Shown here: piece by piece, positions 586 to 15,735 of the stretch
Layout: each line of letters starts with the position of its first letter
Numbering within the stretch: the first letter of the stretch is position 1
Source of the DNA: Deltaproteobacteria bacterium
GTDB taxonomy: Bacteria > Bdellovibrionota > Bdellovibrionia > Bdellovibrionales > Bdellovibrionaceae
DNA length: 64,000 nt
Assembly: GCA_017302835.1 (NCBI GenBank)
Contig: JAFLCC010000005.1
Location: forward strand, 1-64,000
Reading direction: 5' to 3'
Notes under the pieces: generated by a model
The model's database searches: none
Seen by the model: only the letters and a program-made list of their open reading frames with translations
What the model was told of the DNA's origin: nothing
Made by a program: the position numbers and the translations under genes

Positions 586-2382
586 TTGGGAGATCATATT
601 AAGATAAGTTTATTATTGCCAAAGAGGACGGAAAAAACAGAAAATATTGATACCTACCAAAAGGCACAAATTGCCAACAAAACTTCTAATTCATCAGTAC
701 CAGCTTTGCGTTCTCAAGGTAAGAGTGGTTCTGGTTCATTAGTTGTTGGTTCAATTTTAGAAATGAATAAATTACCTCCAGATGAAAAAAGAAAAATAAT
801 GAAGAGATATTTCAGTGAAGAAATATCAAATGTTCAATTTCCCTTGGATGATGGTGTTATCGACTTTATGATTAAAACTTTAGTGAATGACAGCGAGACA
901 CTTCAACGGGCTTTAGATTATCATAATCGTCAAGAAGTCAAAGATCCAAAAAGAACTTTTTTTAGTGATTTTTATAAATATGAATTAGCGAATGAAGGTA
1001 TGAAAAGGTACTTTAGATTCAAACCAAAAGGATCAAACTCAGTGGTTAATGCAAGAGTATTAGATATTCACAGATGGAATAGGTACCCTGAAAATGCAGG
1101 TCCGGAAACCCTTACAAATAGACGAAGTTCAACATTTACAGGCGTGAGTATTCTTGTTGAATGGCTAGGAAGTCTAGATAAAAATGGGATTCAAGAAAAA
1201 CATATTGCCTATTTAAAACAAGAAGAGATTGAAACTGTAGAAATCATAGATAATGCAGAAAGAATAAAAATTCATGACAGTTTTAAGGACACTTTAAGCC
1301 CAATGGAAATTCAAACTAAAAATCTGGCGGAAGCGCTTCGGGTAAAAACATTTGGATTTACGGAAAAAGATCGAGTGCCAGGAATAGGTGCAAGTGATGG
1401 AATTGACCCGCTAACGATGATGAGCAATATCTCTCATATTGCCATGAAAGAATGGAATTTAAATAGATTTGGGGATCTATTAGAAAAAATAATATTGGAC
1501 TTAACAACCAAAGAAGAAAGAGAGCACTCGCTATTTAATATCATCGATTTGATGGGAAAACTAAATCCAAGATTTGTTCTTGAAAAATTTAAAACAGCCT
1601 CACACTCCTGGGTGTATATTTTTGTAATTACAGAAGATGGCCAGCTAAAGGTTTCGCCTCATGGGCACTGGGATAATAATTTGAAAGCACAGAATCTTAG
1701 GCTAGCTGGTGGAAAACGAGTTTTTGCTGCCGGGAAATTTACTATAGATGAAAATGGAAAATTGAGTATTGATTTGAAATCAAATTCCTACCAAGATATT
1801 GATGTCGCCTATGGAAGGCACGATGCGTTTAGAACTTATGGGAATGAGGGATTAGATTTTTTCATAGTTCAAGCTTTTCTGATGCAAACTGGAAAGTATG
1901 TAGAAAACATTAATAGCAGTTCTGCTGAATCATATTACGAGAATGATTTTTTCCGGGAGATGGCTAGAGAAAATAACAGTACGAAATCTAAATTTGAACA
2001 AAGAGGTCAATATGGATTTGGTGGAAATAGATGGGAAGGGTCAGGTAATGAAAGTGATTTTTCTTACACAAAGAGTAAGTTTCACAGTCATCAGGTTAGA
2101 AGTAATGACCTTAAATGGAATGCAGAAAATGAGAATGAAATTCCATTAGAATTTCAAGAATGGGCTAAACGCACAGGTTCAAATGAAAAAATAGACTGGG
2201 CTCATTATGTTTTAGGAACAGATCCAGATATGCCTTTTGGAACAATAAAAAGGAGATATAGAAAATTAATTTTAAAGTTTCATGCGGATAGAAACCCTTC
2301 CGAGCGTGCCGAACGAATTTCACCTAGTTTAACTGTTGCGATGGAAATAATAGAAGAAAAATTAAAAGAAAATGTGAGATAA
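586..2382 (+). CDS. Exported-type protein with C-terminal degenerate J domain, continuation past TAG
   Basis: This 598-residue frame counts from TTG 586, but it is actually open from the codon after the TAG at 523-525. No Shine-Dalgarno sequence precedes the TTG, so independent initiation looks poor. Most of the protein is unrecognised, mixed alpha/beta and rich in Asn/Lys/Glu. The last ~55 residues resemble a DnaJ J domain: YVLG, then KRRYRKLILKFHADRNP, then a closing helix. The usual HPD tripeptide is HAD, so Hsp70 stimulation is doubtful. It ends 12 bases before the next exported protein, which suggests an operon. If joined to the signal peptide at 316, the J-like domain would be periplasmic or secreted, an unusual place for one. 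Function unknown. Confidence 0.7.
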   Translation: MGDHIKISLLLPKRTEKTENIDTYQKAQIANKTSNSSVPALRSQGKSGSGSLVVGSILEMNKLPPDEKRKIMKRYFSEEISNVQFPLDDGVIDFMIKTLVNDSETLQRALDYHNRQEVKDPKRTFFSDFYKYELANEGMKRYFRFKPKGSNSVVNARVLDIHRWNRYPENAGPETLTNRRSSTFTGVSILVEWLGSLDKNGIQEKHIAYLKQEEIETVEIIDNAERIKIHDSFKDTLSPMEIQTKNLAEALRVKTFGFTEKDRVPGIGASDGIDPLTMMSNISHIAMKEWNLNRFGDLLEKIILDLTTKEEREHSLFNIIDLMGKLNPRFVLEKFKTASHSWVYIFVITEDGQLKVSPHGHWDNNLKAQNLRLAGGKRVFAAGKFTIDENGKLSIDLKSNSYQDIDVAYGRHDAFRTYGNEGLDFFIVQAFLMQTGKYVENINSSSAESYYENDFFREMARENNSTKSKFEQRGQYGFGGNRWEGSGNESDFSYTKSKFHSHQVRSNDLKWNAENENEIPLEFQEWAKRTGSNEKIDWAHYVLGTDPDMPFGTIKRRYRKLILKFHADRNPSERAERISPSLTVAMEIIEEKLKENVR

Positions 2383-5942: not shown

Positions 5943-6764
5943 ATGAGATTCAACTGGGTTTTTATCAGAGGAATGATGAGCGGATCGGCTCATTGGTCTC
6001 AATTTTTGGAATATTTTGAAGGCCAGTTTCCTGAAGCTTGCATTCATACACCAGATATCTTGGGAAATGGGAAAAACCATTTTATGGATACACCTTTGAA
6101 AGTTCATGGAAATCTTAGCGGTATTAGAAATCAAGTTCTTAATTCTGAAAAAAAAATTATTGTAGGATTTTCTCTTGGCGGAATGCTCGGATTAGAGTGG
6201 GCGCAGGCCCATCCTGATGAAGTAGCAGGATTGATTTTGATTAATACGAGTGTGAATAGGTCAAAGTTTTACCAGCGATATCGACCTAAGGCCTTTTTAA
6301 AAACGATATTAGCAGCATTTATAAAAGATCCTTTTCAACGTGAAGAAAGAATTTTGGATTTAACATCTACACTTTCAAGGGATGAGAAAAAAATAGTTGC
6401 TAAAGAATTTGCAGAAATAGAAAAGAGACACCCAACGAAAGCCTTTAACTTTTTTAGACAATTGATATTTGCCTCCCAAGTAAAGTTAGAGGAAAAATTG
6501 ATTCATTTTCCAGTTCTGATTCTCAATTCAAAGGGGGACCAGATCGTGCACACTTCATGCGCTGGTAAAATAGCCCAGGCTTTAAATATTCCATTAATCA
6601 CCCATCCAAATGCGGGCCATGACCTGACTTTGGATGATCCAAAATGGGTTATTGAACAAATCCAAATTTGGTTAAAGGCACAGAAAGTAGATGAACCTCA
6701 ATTAAATAAAAAATCAATTAGTCTAATTTTGGAACCAAGAATCAATGAGGGGCATCCAGGGTGA
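5943..6764 (+). CDS. Alpha/beta-fold hydrolase
   Basis: 273 residues, cytoplasmic (no signal peptide). The nucleophile elbow is GFSLGG with S77; the acid is likely D199 (SKGDQIVH) and the base H226 (NAGHDLTLDDP), giving a complete Ser-Asp-His triad in the right order and spacing. The N-terminal VFIRGMMSGSAHW takes the place of the usual oxyanion HG loop. The substrate cannot be told; it is most like small carboxylesterases and BioH/MhpC-like hydrolases. Its last 42 bases overlap the 3' end of the convergent PAP2_C gene. The adjacent lipid-type enzymes make an acyl-ester substrate plausible, but this is inference. Confidence 0.85.
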   Translation: MRFNWVFIRGMMSGSAHWSQFLEYFEGQFPEACIHTPDILGNGKNHFMDTPLKVHGNLSGIRNQVLNSEKKIIVGFSLGGMLGLEWAQAHPDEVAGLILINTSVNRSKFYQRYRPKAFLKTILAAFIKDPFQREERILDLTSTLSRDEKKIVAKEFAEIEKRHPTKAFNFFRQLIFASQVKLEEKLIHFPVLILNSKGDQIVHTSCAGKIAQALNIPLITHPNAGHDLTLDDPKWVIEQIQIWLKAQKVDEPQLNKKSISLILEPRINEGHPG

Positions 6765-7346
6765 TGTCAAAATACAAACAAATAAAGAAACAATGAAACC
6801 AGTAAATATATCCATGGTCCAGTGGGCTCTCAGAACCAATACAACGGTGATTTCATAAATTAGAATTAAAACCCCTATACACCCCCAAACACCACCTAAA
6901 TGAAATAACTCATAAGCACCAAGGGTTGCCAGGGCGGTGTGCCCTGAGAAAAAAAGATCTTGAGTCACTCCATAGGTAACAAAAAGTGATGGGAAACCAG
7001 GATATTTCCAAATCATGCCTTCGGGGGCAGGTAAGATGGTGATTATTTGATTCAGTTGTCGCAATAAAAAAATAATAATCATACAAACTAGCGGTTTAAA
7101 ACTTGGTCCAAATAATGAATAAAAAATAATAAACAAGCCTAATAAATCTATTAATAAACTACTGGATATAAGGAGCCAACGAACGAGGTTTGGGCTTTGA
7201 TTTAAATAGGAGTTTATGGAAGAAGTCAGAAGGTGAAGGCTGTCTTTTATTTCATTATTAGAATTTAAGTGAAATCGAGAAATAAACTTTTGACTTAAAA
7301 ACCAAAAAACGAGTGAGATTATTGTAATTAACAACTTAAAAATCAT
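6723..7346 (-). CDS. Sphingomyelin-synthase-like PAP2_C membrane phosphotransferase
   Basis: 207 residues with about six hydrophobic segments. The catalytic pattern is that of the sphingomyelin synthase/PAP2_C branch of lipid phosphate phosphatases: SGHT (H136), then RAHWTMD (H175 and D179, the HxxxD spacing), preceded by TQDLFFSGHT, close to the GDxxFSGHT block of sphingomyelin synthases. These three residues correspond to the family's His-His-Asp triad. The likely chemistry is transfer or hydrolysis of a phosphoryl head group on a membrane lipid or polyprenyl phosphate; the actual substrate is unknown. It is the last gene of a minus-strand run, 25 bases after the large hydrolase fusion (7372-11325) and its upstream lipoprotein. 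Confidence 0.75.
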   Translation of the reverse strand: MIFKLLITIISLVFWFLSQKFISRFHLNSNNEIKDSLHLLTSSINSYLNQSPNLVRWLLISSSLLIDLLGLFIIFYSLFGPSFKPLVCMIIIFLLRQLNQIITILPAPEGMIWKYPGFPSLFVTYGVTQDLFFSGHTALATLGAYELFHLGGVWGCIGVLILIYEITVVLVLRAHWTMDIFTGFIVSLFVCILTSPWMPLIDSWFQN

Positions 7347-7371: not shown

Positions 7372-10300
7372 CTAGGGTAAGAATTTAAGATGTTTAAAAT
7401 AGGCCTCTGAAGAATCTTTAGTATCATTACTGTCATGTTGAAATATAATAGCTAAAATTTCAAACTCATTTACATTTTTATTCGGAAAAGCTTTCTTTAG
7501 GTCTGCAACAAAATTTCTTTTAAAATTCTGAACCTTTCCTAACATACTTGTGTTATTGAGAAGCAATTGCTTAGACTCTGGCAGGGTAATGAAACCATAA
7601 CTTTTATGGGAGTACCAATTTTCAAAAATATCACCTTCCCTGCGTTCTTCTCCGGGGACGGGGTCCCCCCAATAATATCCAAATAAGAAAACCTTATCAT
7701 TTTTTCCATCAAGAATTGTTAAGTCATTATTTGCTTTTCCATCACGAATCATGAACCAAATTTGAAATGCAGAATCATCTTTTCCCGTTTTTCCTTTCAC
7801 TGGATCAGCCCCGTTCACTCCTTTTGTTACAGCCATTTTTAAATCAATATTTGGAAATTCTAGTGGTGAAAAACGATAAGAAAGGGTCATCATTTTTATA
7901 GAATTTTTATGACTGCGTAGCGCAAGCCAATTCTTTTCCCCATTAAAATCAGTGGGAAAAAATCCAAATTCTTTATTGTCATCGAGTCCCGATGGAGAAC
8001 TTGAATCAAAATAGAATTGATTTTCCATCCGAAAATGAATCATATGTCTATTTTTAAATTCAATTTGAATTCCATGTGGAAATATTTTTTTGTCAGCTGG
8101 AGAAATTCTGAATTTTGAAAAGAGGCTATCTAGGCTTGTTATATCTAGGGAGTTATAAGGGTTGTAGCTAATTTGTGATTTAGGAAAATTTGTTTTCACA
8201 AGGTAATCGTCGGCTGGATCTGAATTCAATGGTAATAAAAGCTGATTAAGGTCCCTTAAGCTTGCAAAGGGTGCGGTTAGAATATATTTATCTCCTTGAA
8301 CATCTATTTTAGTAACGCTATTATCGTCTCCTAATTTAAAATATCTTTTGTTTTTCCATTTTTCAGCATTAGCCAATTGAATCATGGTTTTGGCGTTCCA
8401 TTTAAAATTATTTTTAAGATCGTCAATTTTTAATTCAGCTAATGTTTGTAGAAGCCCTTTCATAAATGCTTTTTGGTTAAAATGGGATGACAAAATACCT
8501 GCAAGATGATCCGCGTTTAGGGTCCCAAGATCTGTTGCTTGTAAAGAATTAGGAAACTTAGAAGACGATGTGGTGACAACGCCATCATTATTTTCATCGA
8601 AACGAGCCAATAATTTTGTAGCTTTCATAAAGATATGGGAATCTTCCGGAAGACTTTCAAAGGTGATCGAAAAATACCTTGTGAGTCCAACCAGGGCTCT
8701 TTCATTTTTTCGCCAAAAGGCAGCCATAGCTGAAGGGGTTACTGACTTAGAAGCTATTTTATCATTTTGACAAATTTCTGGGGATTTACTTCCGGAAAGC
8801 GCGGTCACTAAGGCAAAAGGTAAATCTGTAGAATCTAAGATACTGGATCCATGAAGAGGAGAGGCAATGGTCACCAGTCCTAAAATGGATTCAGAAGTGA
8901 ACTTCGTGTTTTTAAGAATAAAATGGAGAGCATCAATACCTCCTTTAGAGTATCCAAGAAATAAATATTTTGGAGGAGCAAAACCCTTTTGTTGTCGAGA
9001 GCTGGAATCGTCTTTAAGAAACTGAGTTAAGATCTCCGAATTGTAATCACTAGCACAAAGACTTTCTATAGGTGGCTGAATCACGCGGAGCCCTAGTTCA
9101 TCGTTGAGCGCATTTAATCCTAGACTAAAAATTTCTTTATCAAAAATGCTATTATATATTCCTGAAAGGTACACAATGGTTACATCTTTCAGCTTTTCAT
9201 TATATATTTTAGTTAGAGGAGTGGGGTATATTTTATCCTCAAGCTCTGCTTCTTTTATAGTTTCTTGAAGTAGTTTTTGCACCAAAGTTTCTTTACCTAG
9301 TGGATTTGTTGCAAGATTAGCGGCTAGGTTCGTTGTTGGATAAGATCCAAAAGTTTGATTGAGGATCTGTGAATTCTTAATAGCCGATGTTTTTAGAGAG
9401 AGCCAATCTTTGGCAAATTTAAAATCATGGGGATCTGGTACAAAGGGCTTTTCTTGAATAACAAATGACTTTTCCAGTAGATAAGGAATTTGATACATTT
9501 TCATGACAGCTTGTTTCGCAGGCAACGTCATTCCAGAAAGAGTAGACAAATTGCTTTCCTTAGTTTTTTGTAGCAGACCTACTTTCTTTTTTATTTGTTG
9601 GACTTTAGAATGGCTAGCCAGCTTTTCGGCAGATCCAGAAGTAAGAATTGCATCGGTTAGCTCTCCTATATCTTCAGGTGAAATCATTGATTGAATATCA
9701 AACTTTGAAATATTAAAATTCAGAGGACTCAAAAACTGGCTTTCAGGTGACTTCGATGGATCAAATTTAAAAGCACTCATAAAATTCTTCATTTCGCTCA
9801 CGACAAAGTAAGGGCGAGTCTCCGTGACGAATCGAGAAATATATTGAAAAATTCTTTTTTGTGAAAAATCCTTTGCCTGAGTTTCTATACCGACAGGAGA
9901 ATTCTTCATTAGTTCTGAAAGTGAGGAGGAGTCTTTTTGTTGGGATTTCTGATAGGTTTTACCAAATAAATCTTTGGGATTAATATTAAGAAAATGGAGT
10001 ATCTCTTTGGATCTGATTTGACCCGGAATTTTTCTACGATTGGATGCCAAAATACCAAAACTTGAATTGGCAGACAAGGATCCATGAGTTCGATACATTT
10101 TTGTAAAGGCCCCAAGAGAAGACTGAAGATAGTAACCATCCTTAAGAGACAGGATAAAATCTGGAAAATCAAAATTATTTGAAGAAGTTGATTCGACAAT
10201 TCGCCACAAAGAATCTGGATAGGGAGTGTTTGCGGTGATAGACAAGGCCTCATTTTTGGTAATGAATTTTTGAGTATTTAAATTAGCATGGTAGAACTCT

Positions 10301-11325
10301 GGAATAAACAGAACATTTCCTTTTAAATTGTAGTAATAGATTTTTTCATTTTTTTTATCATATTTTAAATAAGCCTCACCTTGATTCGATATAACTGAGA
10401 TATGAGTTTCAGTCTGTGAATTCTTATTTATGGAAATTGCTAAATCAAACCATTTTTCAGTTCTTAAATGTTCTAAAAGTTCTTTCATTTTTCTTCTATC
10501 TTTTAAATAAACAGGCCCCCAAGATCCTAAAGCCATTAAAGGAACGCCAACGTCTTTTTCGTTCTTCAGCTGTTGGACGAACTGAAAACCTGCTGCTTCA
10601 ATTGATTTTTTTAAGTTGACCGGAAGTAATTCAATTTCATCCTTAGTTCCTTCATTAAAACGACCATAGTTTCCATGATCTGATACAAGAATGACTTCGA
10701 TTTCTTGATTTTTTTCTCTATAAGAAGTGATGAGTCTTTTTATCTCAGAATCTAAAATTCGAATGACTTCATAGAGTCTATTTTTCTGAGTATGGGAGGT
10801 GGAATCAATGGCGCCAATGTAACCTGTCAGAATTGATTTCTGTTTTGCAGAAATTAAATCATCAATAACTGATTTTATTTCTAATTTTGGAACTTCAGTA
10901 GTTGGAAAGTACATCAGAGCTTCAACATAGGGATTGAAAAAAAAATCAAAGGCCCCCATATAATATTTTGGAAAGGAAAGTCTTCGGTAGTAATCTCGAG
11001 GGTCTCCTTGAATGGATTGAGTCGAGTCATCAAAATAGGTAGCCTCAACCGATTTAATTCTACCTACAGAACCAAAGAGTTCAGAAGTTTGAGTTACTTG
11101 TGACCAAGAGAGATCAGTCATTGATGGAAAGGGGGCAACATGGGCACCTAATTGGGTAAATTCTTGTAAAAACCCTTGTCTCTGGGCTTCTAAAAAACTA
11201 GCGTAAGATAACCCATCAATTCCAATGAGTATAGTTTGAACTTTGTTTTCAAGCGAAAAAGCAAAAGGTAAAAATAGAAGCTGGGCTAAGAGAAAAAACT
11301 TTGCGTAGATTAGTTTAGTCATCAT
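7372..11325 (-). CDS. Secreted fusion: alkaline-phosphatase-like phosphodiesterase, esterase and DUF3047-like domain
   Basis: 1317 residues with signal peptide (~1-24, cleavage near AFS). Region 1 (~28-450) has the alkaline phosphatase/type I phosphodiesterase fold: GIDG (D37), PSMTDLSW with a candidate T70 nucleophile, D174 and H178 in AIDSTSHTQ, D216-H217 in VSDHGNYG, and H414 in YRTHGS. Together these make a full metal set. Region 2 (~700-960) is an alpha/beta hydrolase with GYSKGG (S793), ASPLHGSS after the elbow as in lipases, an acid near D914 and H940. Region 3 (~1000-1317) resembles DUF3047: a beta-rich segment ending in AIIFQHDSNDTKDSSEAYF. Its combined phosphodiesterase and esterase chemistry, with a lipid-phosphate enzyme next door, suggests extracytoplasmic lipid or phosphoester breakdown. 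The substrate is inferred only. Confidence 0.75.
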   Translation of the reverse strand: MMTKLIYAKFFLLAQLLFLPFAFSLENKVQTILIGIDGLSYASFLEAQRQGFLQEFTQLGAHVAPFPSMTDLSWSQVTQTSELFGSVGRIKSVEATYFDDSTQSIQGDPRDYYRRLSFPKYYMGAFDFFFNPYVEALMYFPTTEVPKLEIKSVIDDLISAKQKSILTGYIGAIDSTSHTQKNRLYEVIRILDSEIKRLITSYREKNQEIEVILVSDHGNYGRFNEGTKDEIELLPVNLKKSIEAAGFQFVQQLKNEKDVGVPLMALGSWGPVYLKDRRKMKELLEHLRTEKWFDLAISINKNSQTETHISVISNQGEAYLKYDKKNEKIYYYNLKGNVLFIPEFYHANLNTQKFITKNEALSITANTPYPDSLWRIVESTSSNNFDFPDFILSLKDGYYLQSSLGAFTKMYRTHGSLSANSSFGILASNRRKIPGQIRSKEILHFLNINPKDLFGKTYQKSQQKDSSSLSELMKNSPVGIETQAKDFSQKRIFQYISRFVTETRPYFVVSEMKNFMSAFKFDPSKSPESQFLSPLNFNISKFDIQSMISPEDIGELTDAILTSGSAEKLASHSKVQQIKKKVGLLQKTKESNLSTLSGMTLPAKQAVMKMYQIPYLLEKSFVIQEKPFVPDPHDFKFAKDWLSLKTSAIKNSQILNQTFGSYPTTNLAANLATNPLGKETLVQKLLQETIKEAELEDKIYPTPLTKIYNEKLKDVTIVYLSGIYNSIFDKEIFSLGLNALNDELGLRVIQPPIESLCASDYNSEILTQFLKDDSSSRQQKGFAPPKYLFLGYSKGGIDALHFILKNTKFTSESILGLVTIASPLHGSSILDSTDLPFALVTALSGSKSPEICQNDKIASKSVTPSAMAAFWRKNERALVGLTRYFSITFESLPEDSHIFMKATKLLARFDENNDGVVTTSSSKFPNSLQATDLGTLNADHLAGILSSHFNQKAFMKGLLQTLAELKIDDLKNNFKWNAKTMIQLANAEKWKNKRYFKLGDDNSVTKIDVQGDKYILTAPFASLRDLNQLLLPLNSDPADDYLVKTNFPKSQISYNPYNSLDITSLDSLFSKFRISPADKKIFPHGIQIEFKNRHMIHFRMENQFYFDSSSPSGLDDNKEFGFFPTDFNGEKNWLALRSHKNSIKMMTLSYRFSPLEFPNIDLKMAVTKGVNGADPVKGKTGKDDSAFQIWFMIRDGKANNDLTILDGKNDKVFLFGYYWGDPVPGEERREGDIFENWYSHKSYGFITLPESKQLLLNNTSMLGKVQNFKRNFVADLKKAFPNKNVNEFEILAIIFQHDSNDTKDSSEAYFKHLKFLP

Positions 11326-11346: not shown

Positions 11347-11877
11347 CTACTCTAGGTAGATATTGACAAGAGTGCCTTCACGATAACTTAATTTAGAGCC
11401 ACTTTTTGCTTTACAGGACATAGCATTTGCCGAAGGTAAAAGAAAATCACCAATTTGATTTAGCATGCACAAAAAACCTAAAGAAAAGTCTCTTGATGCA
11501 AGCATAATTGGTTCTTTTTGATAAATTGATTTTTCTAATTTAGCGAACTCAATGTCGTACATGAGAAAGCCACTTAATTTTAAGTTTATACTATGAATAA
11601 GACGATCATTCCACTTTTGGTCAAAACTAAAGATGACTCGCGCTTGATTTTTAGGATCACGCGTGATTTCTGATGGATATTCTTTATTTCCTTGAAAATC
11701 TACGAGCTGAAGATTGATATCTTCAGTAGGGATAAGAAGGGTGTTAACAGGTGTGCTGTCATTAAAGTAGTCAACTGCCAAAAGGTAATCATTTATCGTT
11801 GATGACCGATCAATGCCATCTTTAGGACAACAACTAATCAACAATAAGGAAAACAACAAAGTTAATACAATAGGCAT
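11347..11877 (-). CDS. Small lipoprotein, unknown function
   Basis: 176 residues. The N-terminus has a lipoprotein signal: hydrophobic LTLLFSLLLISC with the lipobox cysteine at about residue 16, followed by a second Cys. The mature part has no motif I know; it is predicted to be mostly beta, with one late Cys pair (LGFLCMLN and MSCKAK). It lies 21 bases upstream of the large phosphodiesterase-esterase fusion on the same strand and is probably the first gene of that operon. It may be an anchor or partner for the secreted enzyme, which is a guess from position. Confidence 0.7.
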   Translation of the reverse strand: MPIVLTLLFSLLLISCCPKDGIDRSSTINDYLLAVDYFNDSTPVNTLLIPTEDINLQLVDFQGNKEYPSEITRDPKNQARVIFSFDQKWNDRLIHSINLKLSGFLMYDIEFAKLEKSIYQKEPIMLASRDFSLGFLCMLNQIGDFLLPSANAMSCKAKSGSKLSYREGTLVNIYLE

Positions 11878-13571: not shown

Positions 13572-14660
13572 ATGAGTCAAAGGAAAGTAGATTGGAAGAA
13601 TATAAACTTTCCTTTGACCTTGGCACCCATGGTTGGGATCAGCCATGTCGCCTTACGAGAAATTTTGCACATGTATTTGCCACAGGAAGCTCTGACATTG
13701 TGGCCGACAGAAATGTTGAATTCAAGAAAGTTACCAAAAGAAAATTTTGAGACGACGCCTGAAACACAAAAATTACCTGAAGAACATTATCTAGTGCCCC
13801 AAATTTTGGGAAATGAAGAAAAACCAATATTTGAAAGCATACAAAAGCTTAAAATATGGGGGGCTCATGGAATTGATATCAATATGGGTTGCCCTGTTCA
13901 AAAAGCTCTAAAGCATAATTATGGAGTGGCTCTGATGGGTGATAAAAAATATGCTCAATCCGTTGTTAAAATGGCCGTTCAAAGTTCTGATTTACCTGTG
14001 TCGGTTAAGTTAAGAGCTGTTGAAAGTGAAAACTCCTTAGAAGATCTTTATTCTTTTGTAAGTGGGTTGGTTGATTCAGGAGCCTCCTGGATTTGCTTGC
14101 ACCCAAGAACGGCCACACAAAAAAGAAGAGGACATGCAGATTGGGAACAAATTAGATTTTTAAAAAGTAAAATAAGTATTCCCATTATTGGGAATGGCGA
14201 CGTGCAAACTTGTGAAGATGTCTTAGCTATGAAAAAGGAAACTCATTGTGATTTGGTCATGGCAGGAAGGGCTTTAGCCGCAAGACCCTGGATGTTGTGG
14301 CAAGTGGGTGAGTACCTGGGAATGAAAGCCCCTCAAAATAAGTTAATTAATGATCGAAAAAGGGCTCCAAAAACCAAAGAGGAAGAAGGCGCTGAATATG
14401 GAAAATGTTTATTATTAATGATAGATCTTGCAGAAAAATATTTTGATTCATATCCAGTTGGTTCTCATTTAGTAAGTGCAAATCTAGCAATGAGAAAAAT
14501 AGCTTTTTATGTTAGGATCACTAGCCCTTGGCTCGAGTTTGGACATACTCTTGTAAGTCTTGTTTCAAAATCTAAAAACACCCAAGAACTAAGGCAAAGA
14601 ATCTCACATTTTTTTTCAATGCCCCAATCCATGAATCCAAAAACAGAGCTTAAACAATAG
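13572..14660 (+). CDS. tRNA-dihydrouridine synthase (Dus family)
   Basis: 362 residues, an FMN-dependent TIM-barrel enzyme that reduces uridine to dihydrouridine in tRNA D loops. Visible Dus marks: LAPMVGISH near the N-terminus, INMGCPVQKALKHNYGVALM (the GCP block that ends in the substrate loop), LHPRTATQKRRGHADW, GNGDV and MAGRALAARPW for FMN phosphate binding. The C-terminal ~100 residues are the helical tRNA-recognition domain. It is closest by eye to DusB-type sequences, but the subfamily is uncertain, so no symbol is given. It starts 7 bases after the POT transporter, and its last 11 bases overlap the 3' end of a second, convergent Dus gene. Confidence 0.88.
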   Translation: MSQRKVDWKNINFPLTLAPMVGISHVALREILHMYLPQEALTLWPTEMLNSRKLPKENFETTPETQKLPEEHYLVPQILGNEEKPIFESIQKLKIWGAHGIDINMGCPVQKALKHNYGVALMGDKKYAQSVVKMAVQSSDLPVSVKLRAVESENSLEDLYSFVSGLVDSGASWICLHPRTATQKRRGHADWEQIRFLKSKISIPIIGNGDVQTCEDVLAMKKETHCDLVMAGRALAARPWMLWQVGEYLGMKAPQNKLINDRKRAPKTKEEEGAEYGKCLLLMIDLAEKYFDSYPVGSHLVSANLAMRKIAFYVRITSPWLEFGHTLVSLVSKSKNTQELRQRISHFFSMPQSMNPKTELKQ

Positions 14661-15735
14661 AATTTTCAAAAAGCTCCTTGTATAAGGCTTCTTTAAAAAG
14701 TGGATGCTTCAAGGTCTTCATCTTATCAAAAAAAAATTTAAATTGCGAATTTTTTGAGGATATGGATTTTAACCAACCTTTTACCTTGGCCGTTGCATAG
14801 TACTCATTAACTTCTTGAGAAGATAGTTCGAAGTAACTTGTAAGTATTTTAATGAGTCTTTGCGGAGAAAGCTCAATTTTGTAGTGAAGCAGATCGTTGT
14901 CTGAACAATGGGTTCCAAGGGATCTTTCTTTTAGAAAATGATGTATTTCAGAAAAAAGCATTGGATTGTATATCACTCCTCGACCAATCATAAAATTTTG
15001 ACAATTAGTTTTTGCATGACATTCAATTAAATTTTTAATTGAAAAAATATCCCCATTGGCAACGAGAGGAGTTTTGGTCCATTCACGTATTTGTGGAAGG
15101 TATTCCCAATGGGCTGGTGGGGCATAGCCATTTTTTTTAGTTCGGCAGTGAACCGTAAGCCAGCTAAGTTGAGCTTCATCAATGGCCTGAATAACATCTT
15201 TCAATAGTATGGTATCAGTAAAACCTAATCTGATTTTAGCAGAAACTTTAATGTTTTTGGGAATGCGAGTTCTTAAGTGTTTCGTAATATTTCCAATTTG
15301 ATCTGGGAATTGCAGCAAATACGCTCCACCCTGATTTCTATTTACAGTCTTTGCTGGACAACCAAAATTAAGGTCGATTCCTTTCGCCCCTAATTCAATG
15401 GCGCGTTCTGCGTTAACCAGAAGAGCCTCAGGATTGCTTCCAAGTAATTGAATAATAATCGGAGTTTTATTATTTACCCTTGGACCATTTAACTGACACG
15501 CACTCCTTGAGGTACTTTCTTTAATAGAGCTTTGAGTTAATGATAATTTCAGTAACTCTGGACAATAACGATAAAAAACCTTTTTAGAGTGGAGCTGGGT
15601 AGTGACCCTTATAAATTCGGTCACGCAGTAGTCGATTCCATCAAGCTGACATAGTTTTTCTCTAAATGCTGAGTGGGTAATTCCTTCCATGGGGGCTAAA
15701 AATAAATTTATTTTTCCAGATGATTGCAGATCCAC
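14650..15735 (-). CDS. tRNA-dihydrouridine synthase, DusC-like
   Basis: 361 residues. Dus fold with LAPMEGITHSAFR, GIDLNFGCPAKTVNRNQGGAYLL (split here as DLNFGCPAKTVN and GGAYLL), the LTVHCRTKKNGY block, ANGDIFS and MIGRGVIYNP. The DLNFGCPAKTVN version of the core motif is typical of DusC, which in E. coli modifies U16. It overlaps the upstream EVE-domain gene by 28 bases on the same strand (translationally coupled) and the convergent Dus paralogue by 11 bases at the 3' end. DusC assignment rests on that motif only. Confidence 0.87.
   Translation of the reverse strand: MDLQSSGKINLFLAPMEGITHSAFREKLCQLDGIDYCVTEFIRVTTQLHSKKVFYRYCPELLKLSLTQSSIKESTSRSACQLNGPRVNNKTPIIIQLLGSNPEALLVNAERAIELGAKGIDLNFGCPAKTVNRNQGGAYLLQFPDQIGNITKHLRTRIPKNIKVSAKIRLGFTDTILLKDVIQAIDEAQLSWLTVHCRTKKNGYAPPAHWEYLPQIREWTKTPLVANGDIFSIKNLIECHAKTNCQNFMIGRGVIYNPMLFSEIHHFLKERSLGTHCSDNDLLHYKIELSPQRLIKILTSYFELSSQEVNEYYATAKVKGWLKSISSKNSQFKFFFDKMKTLKHPLFKEALYKELFENSIV

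Follow-up and report, generated by a model that had tools for sequence, protein, structure and literature searches.

Within the window, i.e., the whole stretch of 64,000 nucleotides that was analyzed, the gene that we describe here is encoded by the minus strand; it runs from position 11325 to position 7372 and comprises 1317 codons and a stop. The first-pass annotation had delineated this 1317-residue chain at 7372-11325 without stating its strand, and had placed nine active-site residues (D37, D174, H178, D216, H217, H414, S793, D914, and H940), all of which we found exactly at these positions. The host genome, which amounts to 3.63 Mb over 35 contigs with a completeness of 99.98%, carries a single copy of the gene. 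Its product begins with a probable signal peptide (residues 1-24, 11254..11325, minus strand), deduced from a hydropathy peak and, by eye, from the -3/-1 rule. Indeed, the 19-residue hydropathy exceeds 1.5 solely within the first 26 residues or so, up to the AFS/LEN junction, and no further membrane segment was seen, so that the protein is probably exported. Searching NCBIfam with the protein returned zero matching families. Immediately upstream, 21 bases away and on the same strand, lies a small lipoprotein-like gene (11347-11877, minus strand, motif ISCCPKDG), which has zero Pfam matches and no relative in the compared neighborhoods.

The N-terminal part (residues 30-450, 9976..11238, minus strand) is a domain of the alkaline phosphatase (AP) superfamily, of the type I phosphodiesterase kind. 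It passes the Pfam cut-off of PF01663 (24.9 bits for a cut-off of 23, E 1.8e-5), a family that is matched in 8 of 9 orthologues (best E 6e-8). Members of the AP superfamily include phosphatases, nucleotide pyrophosphatases, and phospho-head-group transferases. The metal ligands D37, D174, H178, D216, H217, and H414 follow the pattern D, D..H, DH, H and do not vary among the sequences compared, of which 11 are full-length and 7 stand-alone. The first-pass annotation had listed these ligands and the triad described below correctly but had overlooked the nucleophile, T70, within the FPSMT70D motif, a position held by T or S in all aligned relatives. In an 11-sequence alignment of this domain, which takes in stand-alone relatives of 21-24% identity, D37, F66-P67, T/S70, D71, D174, H178, D216-H217-G218, and H414 are all kept. 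Such stand-alone AP-type relatives, of about 450 aa, occur in the order and the class. The sulfatase branch was ruled out, the segment FPSMTDLSW (66-74) being devoid of the formylglycine motif C/S-x-P-x-R. An Asn located 21 residues past the nucleophile is a mark of NPP/PafA enzymes. Here, the corresponding position (91) is a K, and an insertion could move the Asn elsewhere; with K91 at the place expected for this Asn, mono- and diesterases are not told apart. Hence, the earlier label of phosphodiesterase is to be read more loosely, the motif set being that of the AP superfamily. The likeness to the ENPP/NPP enzymes of PF01663 thus consists of the two-metal ligands (D/D-H/D-H/H), the Thr/Ser nucleophile after FPS, the SDHG motif, and the Pfam match, whereas the protein is remote from them, does not show the NPP Asn at its usual place, and has two extra domains fused to it. 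The profile of the domain draws the structures of ENPP1, 3, 4, 5, 6, and 7 weakly (E 0.02-0.9), which we therefore take as supporting evidence and no more. One of them, ENPP6, is a choline-specific ENPP/NPP enzyme of the alkaline phosphatase superfamily (PMC4757880).

The middle part (residues 701-965, 8431..9225, minus strand) is an alpha/beta hydrolase domain, predicted to be lipase-like, whose triad is S793-D914-H940. It matches the structure of MGS0156 (5D8M), the closest relative with a solved structure, with an E-value of 5.6e-4 when a single sequence is used and of 1.4e-7 with a profile, and the two proteins line up at all three triad positions (Ser, NDG-Asp, and ADH-His). MGS0156 is a metagenomic carboxylesterase/lipase that hydrolyses olive oil and polyesters (PMC5341072). 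Unlike our protein, it is stand-alone, and the likeness spans about 160 residues; the role of lipase in the chain studied here is a prediction. In Pfam, the middle part gives a marginal match to PGAP1 (0.027). The nucleophile elbow among relatives is G/S-Y-S-K-G, so that a strict GxSxG is not universal. Stand-alone relatives of the hydrolase domain (~400 aa, E down to ~1e-39) are common in another family.

The C-terminal part (residues 1080-1317, 7375..8088, minus strand) resembles DUF3047 (PF11249). The first-pass annotation had named it DUF3047-like, an assignment that is weak by Pfam and clear by profile-profile comparison. With Pfam, the window protein stays below the cut-off (19.6 bits for a cut-off of 27, E 7e-4), but 8 of 9 orthologues are matched (best E 5.8e-6) and those of genomes G353 (29.1 bits), G061, and G010 pass it. 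Aligned with 15 stand-alone DUF3047 proteins, drawn from the same phylum, the tail gives an hhalign probability of 97.7% (E 2e-12) over 155 columns, whereas the usual members of the family are stand-alone proteins of ~210-280 aa. Two motifs of the tail, DDSAFQ and DSND, are invariant. Its conceivable ligands are a lipid, a glycan, and metal ions. The three domains are separated by a mostly helical connector (residues 451-700, 9226..9975, minus strand), where an alignment of 11 sequences leaves 9 of 250 columns without variation, and by a variable linker (residues 966-1079, 8089..8430, minus strand), where a single column out of 114 is invariant. Both are barely conserved and therefore mark the domain borders. 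The connector appears as helices in a low-confidence structure model, and its own profile finds the full-length members as its sole matches. The two structure predictions, of residues 26-700 and 480-1317 from a six-sequence input, reached a mean pLDDT of 45 and 43, respectively, which is too low for further use.

Of the 66 genomes of the family, 22 encode the same three-part chain (20 full-length copies and 2 cut by contig ends), with 45-62% identity. When 369 genomes of the phylum were searched with a profile, three more full-length members came up, from outside the family (G259, G240, and G353; 33-36% identity). In 11 full-length sequences, at identities that go down to 33%, none of the nine residues of the metal site and the triad varies. 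Overall, 38 of 226 D/H/S residues are invariant and all nine active-site ones are among them (hypergeometric P 4.5e-8, a guide rather than an exact probability since the sequences are related). Both active sites being intact in distant relatives, the protein looks like a genuine double enzyme, and the three-part order is a stable architecture rather than a chance fusion. The AP-type and hydrolase domains were not found as separate adjoining genes around the stand-alone relatives. The proposal of three parts with two separate active sites, put forward in the first-pass annotation, is thus backed by conservation over great distance and by the domain searches (PF01663 above cut-off, lipase-like match to 5D8M, DUF3047 by profile-profile comparison), and its order recurs in the 22 family genomes and in 3 from other families. 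The same annotation knew of no described protein with such an order; this agrees with the empty NCBIfam search and with the open-access literature, where we found no description of DUF3047 or of this type of protein in Bdellovibrio. The parts are each of known kinds, but none of the descriptions that we could consult has them in this order.

As far as searched, this conserved multi-domain family is confined to one phylum. Beyond the phylum, the search covered plasmids, where nothing matched the protein, and 84,980 species by a pattern-based scan that finds close relatives only; the latter retrieved Bdellovibrio genomes, including NZ_CP102930.1 of B. bacteriovorus kdesi. Five further genomes of the genus were tested and all of them lack the gene, which is therefore accessory. 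In one genome (G171, locus L079, 6459-7209), we observed a decayed copy, in which the first ~75 matched residues are joined to the DUF3047-like tail and which is interrupted by stops and frameshifts; this lineage is losing the gene.

Two kinds of neighborhood accompany the gene. In the window, it is followed by a gene for a membrane protein of 207 aa resembling PDCT and PAP2_C (6723..7346, minus strand) and then by that of a separate alpha/beta hydrolase (5943..6764, plus strand; PF00561, 50.4 bits). The membrane protein is above both Pfam cut-offs (PF24788, AtPDCT1/2, 34.6 bits; PF14360, PAP2_C, 28.4 bits), and its likeness to plant PDCT and to the sphingomyelin-synthase-like PAP2_C proteins extends to an intact H...H-D site, the SGHT and AHWTxD motifs being invariant in all PDCT-like copies. 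It is a possible head-group transferase, which would make it a bacterial enzyme of this kind in its own right. It is, however, encoded by a separate gene, and about half of the genomes that carry the three-part gene lack it. On the other hand, among the 13 of 369 phylum genomes that have a PDCT-like gene, 12 have the three-part gene within about 1.2 kb of it. Within the family, the association of the two genes gives a Fisher P of 1.4e-6, relatedness being ignored. The set occurs in three genera with varying order and strand. An alpha/beta hydrolase gene is usually found beside the pair, and in the further genomes that were sampled it goes along with the PDCT-like one.

In five other Bdellovibrio species (L036, L037, L042, L085, and L086), the gene is located between ppx and sixA-ppk. 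Its neighbors there also include phoU, a PhoB/PhoR-like pair, and a gene for an unassigned outer-membrane-like protein; the PhoU, PPK, and SixA models score above their equivalog cut-offs, and PhoB and PhoR below theirs. In most genomes lacking the three-part gene, and also in several that carry it elsewhere, ppx and sixA are adjacent or separated by no more than about 0.6 kb, so that insertion or removal of the gene at that spot was a clean one. In a genome of another genus (G017), it lies about 11 kb from ppx. The PDCT-like and ppx neighborhoods never co-occur, and the copies of G014, G029, G259, and G353 (the last two outside the family) have neither. On a tree of 24 members, where several forks are open, neither neighborhood corresponds to one clade, and they require 4 changes (PDCT) and 3 changes (ppx). 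We found no convincing Pho box upstream of 18 copies of the gene: the best match was rarer than 5% of the background at 2 of the 18 loci, one of them inside the ORF and none in the window.

To our knowledge, the enzymes by which predators of the Bdellovibrio type dispose of, or re-use, the phospholipids and the phosphorus of their prey are poorly understood. Two independent sites are kept in one exported chain, which suggests two reactions on one material. Taken together, the relationship to a lipase, the partnership with a PDCT-like gene, and the location in a polyphosphate/Pho locus point to phosphorus-containing lipids as the substrate. The reading that we tentatively prefer, without granting it an even chance, is that of an exported bifunctional hydrolase which, in Bdellovibrionaceae and their relatives, would degrade or remodel phosphorus-containing lipids, whether these come from the prey or from the envelope of the cell itself. 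Acyl esters would be cleaved by the lipase-like domain through its S793-D914-H940 triad. The two-metal AP-type domain would use T70 to attack the phosphate ester, either in the intact lipid or after deacylation, while the DUF3047-like tail may attach to the substrate or to some surface. Fatty acid would be released, as would phosphate or a phospho-head group; these products could then feed phosphate and polyphosphate metabolism, and the PDCT-like transferase, in the genomes that encode it, might re-use the head groups. This reading is weakened by the failure to find a convincing Pho box, by the copies with neither kind of neighborhood, by the K at position 91, and by the accessory nature of the gene. 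The first-pass annotation suggested the removal of a head group and of acyl chains from the same lipid, which does not conflict with the lipase relative or with the PDCT-like and polyphosphate/Pho neighbors. A stronger version, in which a single exported chain fully dismantles phospholipids and channels their phosphorus to polyphosphate storage in predators, and would be the first described enzyme so composed, strikes us as doubtful.

The same domains could, on the other hand, serve synthesis. The enzymes of the EptA and PIG-N types, which belong to the AP superfamily, transfer phospho-head groups. The AP-type domain could likewise transfer such a group to an envelope lipid or glycan, with the hydrolase domain deacylating the acceptor or the donor and the whole protein working in step with the PDCT-like transferase. 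The occurrence of head-group transferases in the PF01663 superfamily and the intact H...H-D site of the PDCT-like neighbor speak for such a biosynthetic or modifying enzyme. However, about half of the genomes with the three-part gene have no PDCT-like gene, the lipase-like part has its counterpart in a degradative enzyme, and the ppx/ppk location indicates phosphorus turnover, so that we regard this alternative as rather unlikely.

The location beside ppx, ppk, and phoU in five species would also suit an enzyme that scavenges phosphate from soluble phosphoesters such as nucleotides and sugar phosphates, the hydrolase domain then acting on unrelated esters and sharing nothing but the export. 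Nucleotide pyrophosphatases are found within PF01663, and the weak profile matches to ENPP1, 3, 4, 5, 6, and 7 point the same way; but the lasting fusion to a lipase-like domain across families and the adjoining PDCT-like gene of 12 genomes argue against it, and we consider it rather unlikely as well. As for the domain assignments themselves, the Pfam matches are individually weak, PF01663 alone being above its cut-off in the window protein, and NCBIfam has no matching family. This speaks for wrong assignments, the chain being instead non-enzymatic or a known family in its own right. Such an error seems very improbable, since two of the parts have stand-alone homologues, stand-alone DUF3047 proteins match the third, and every catalytic residue is conserved over great distance. 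A conserved double enzyme encoded at a polyphosphate/Pho locus in some species and beside a head-group-transferase-like gene in others is a concrete and testable candidate for the use of prey lipids and phosphorus, and its orthologue (L006) in B. bacteriovorus kdesi is available in a cultivated strain.

Elsewhere in the window, two apparent dihydrouridine-synthase-like genes (13572-14660, plus strand; 14650-15735, minus strand), which are similar and fall into one homology cluster, are convergent and overlap by ~11 bases. Finally, a gene at 586-2382 (plus strand) encodes a protein of 598 aa whose last ~60 residues look, by eye, like a J-domain in which HAD replaces HPD (KFHADRNP).
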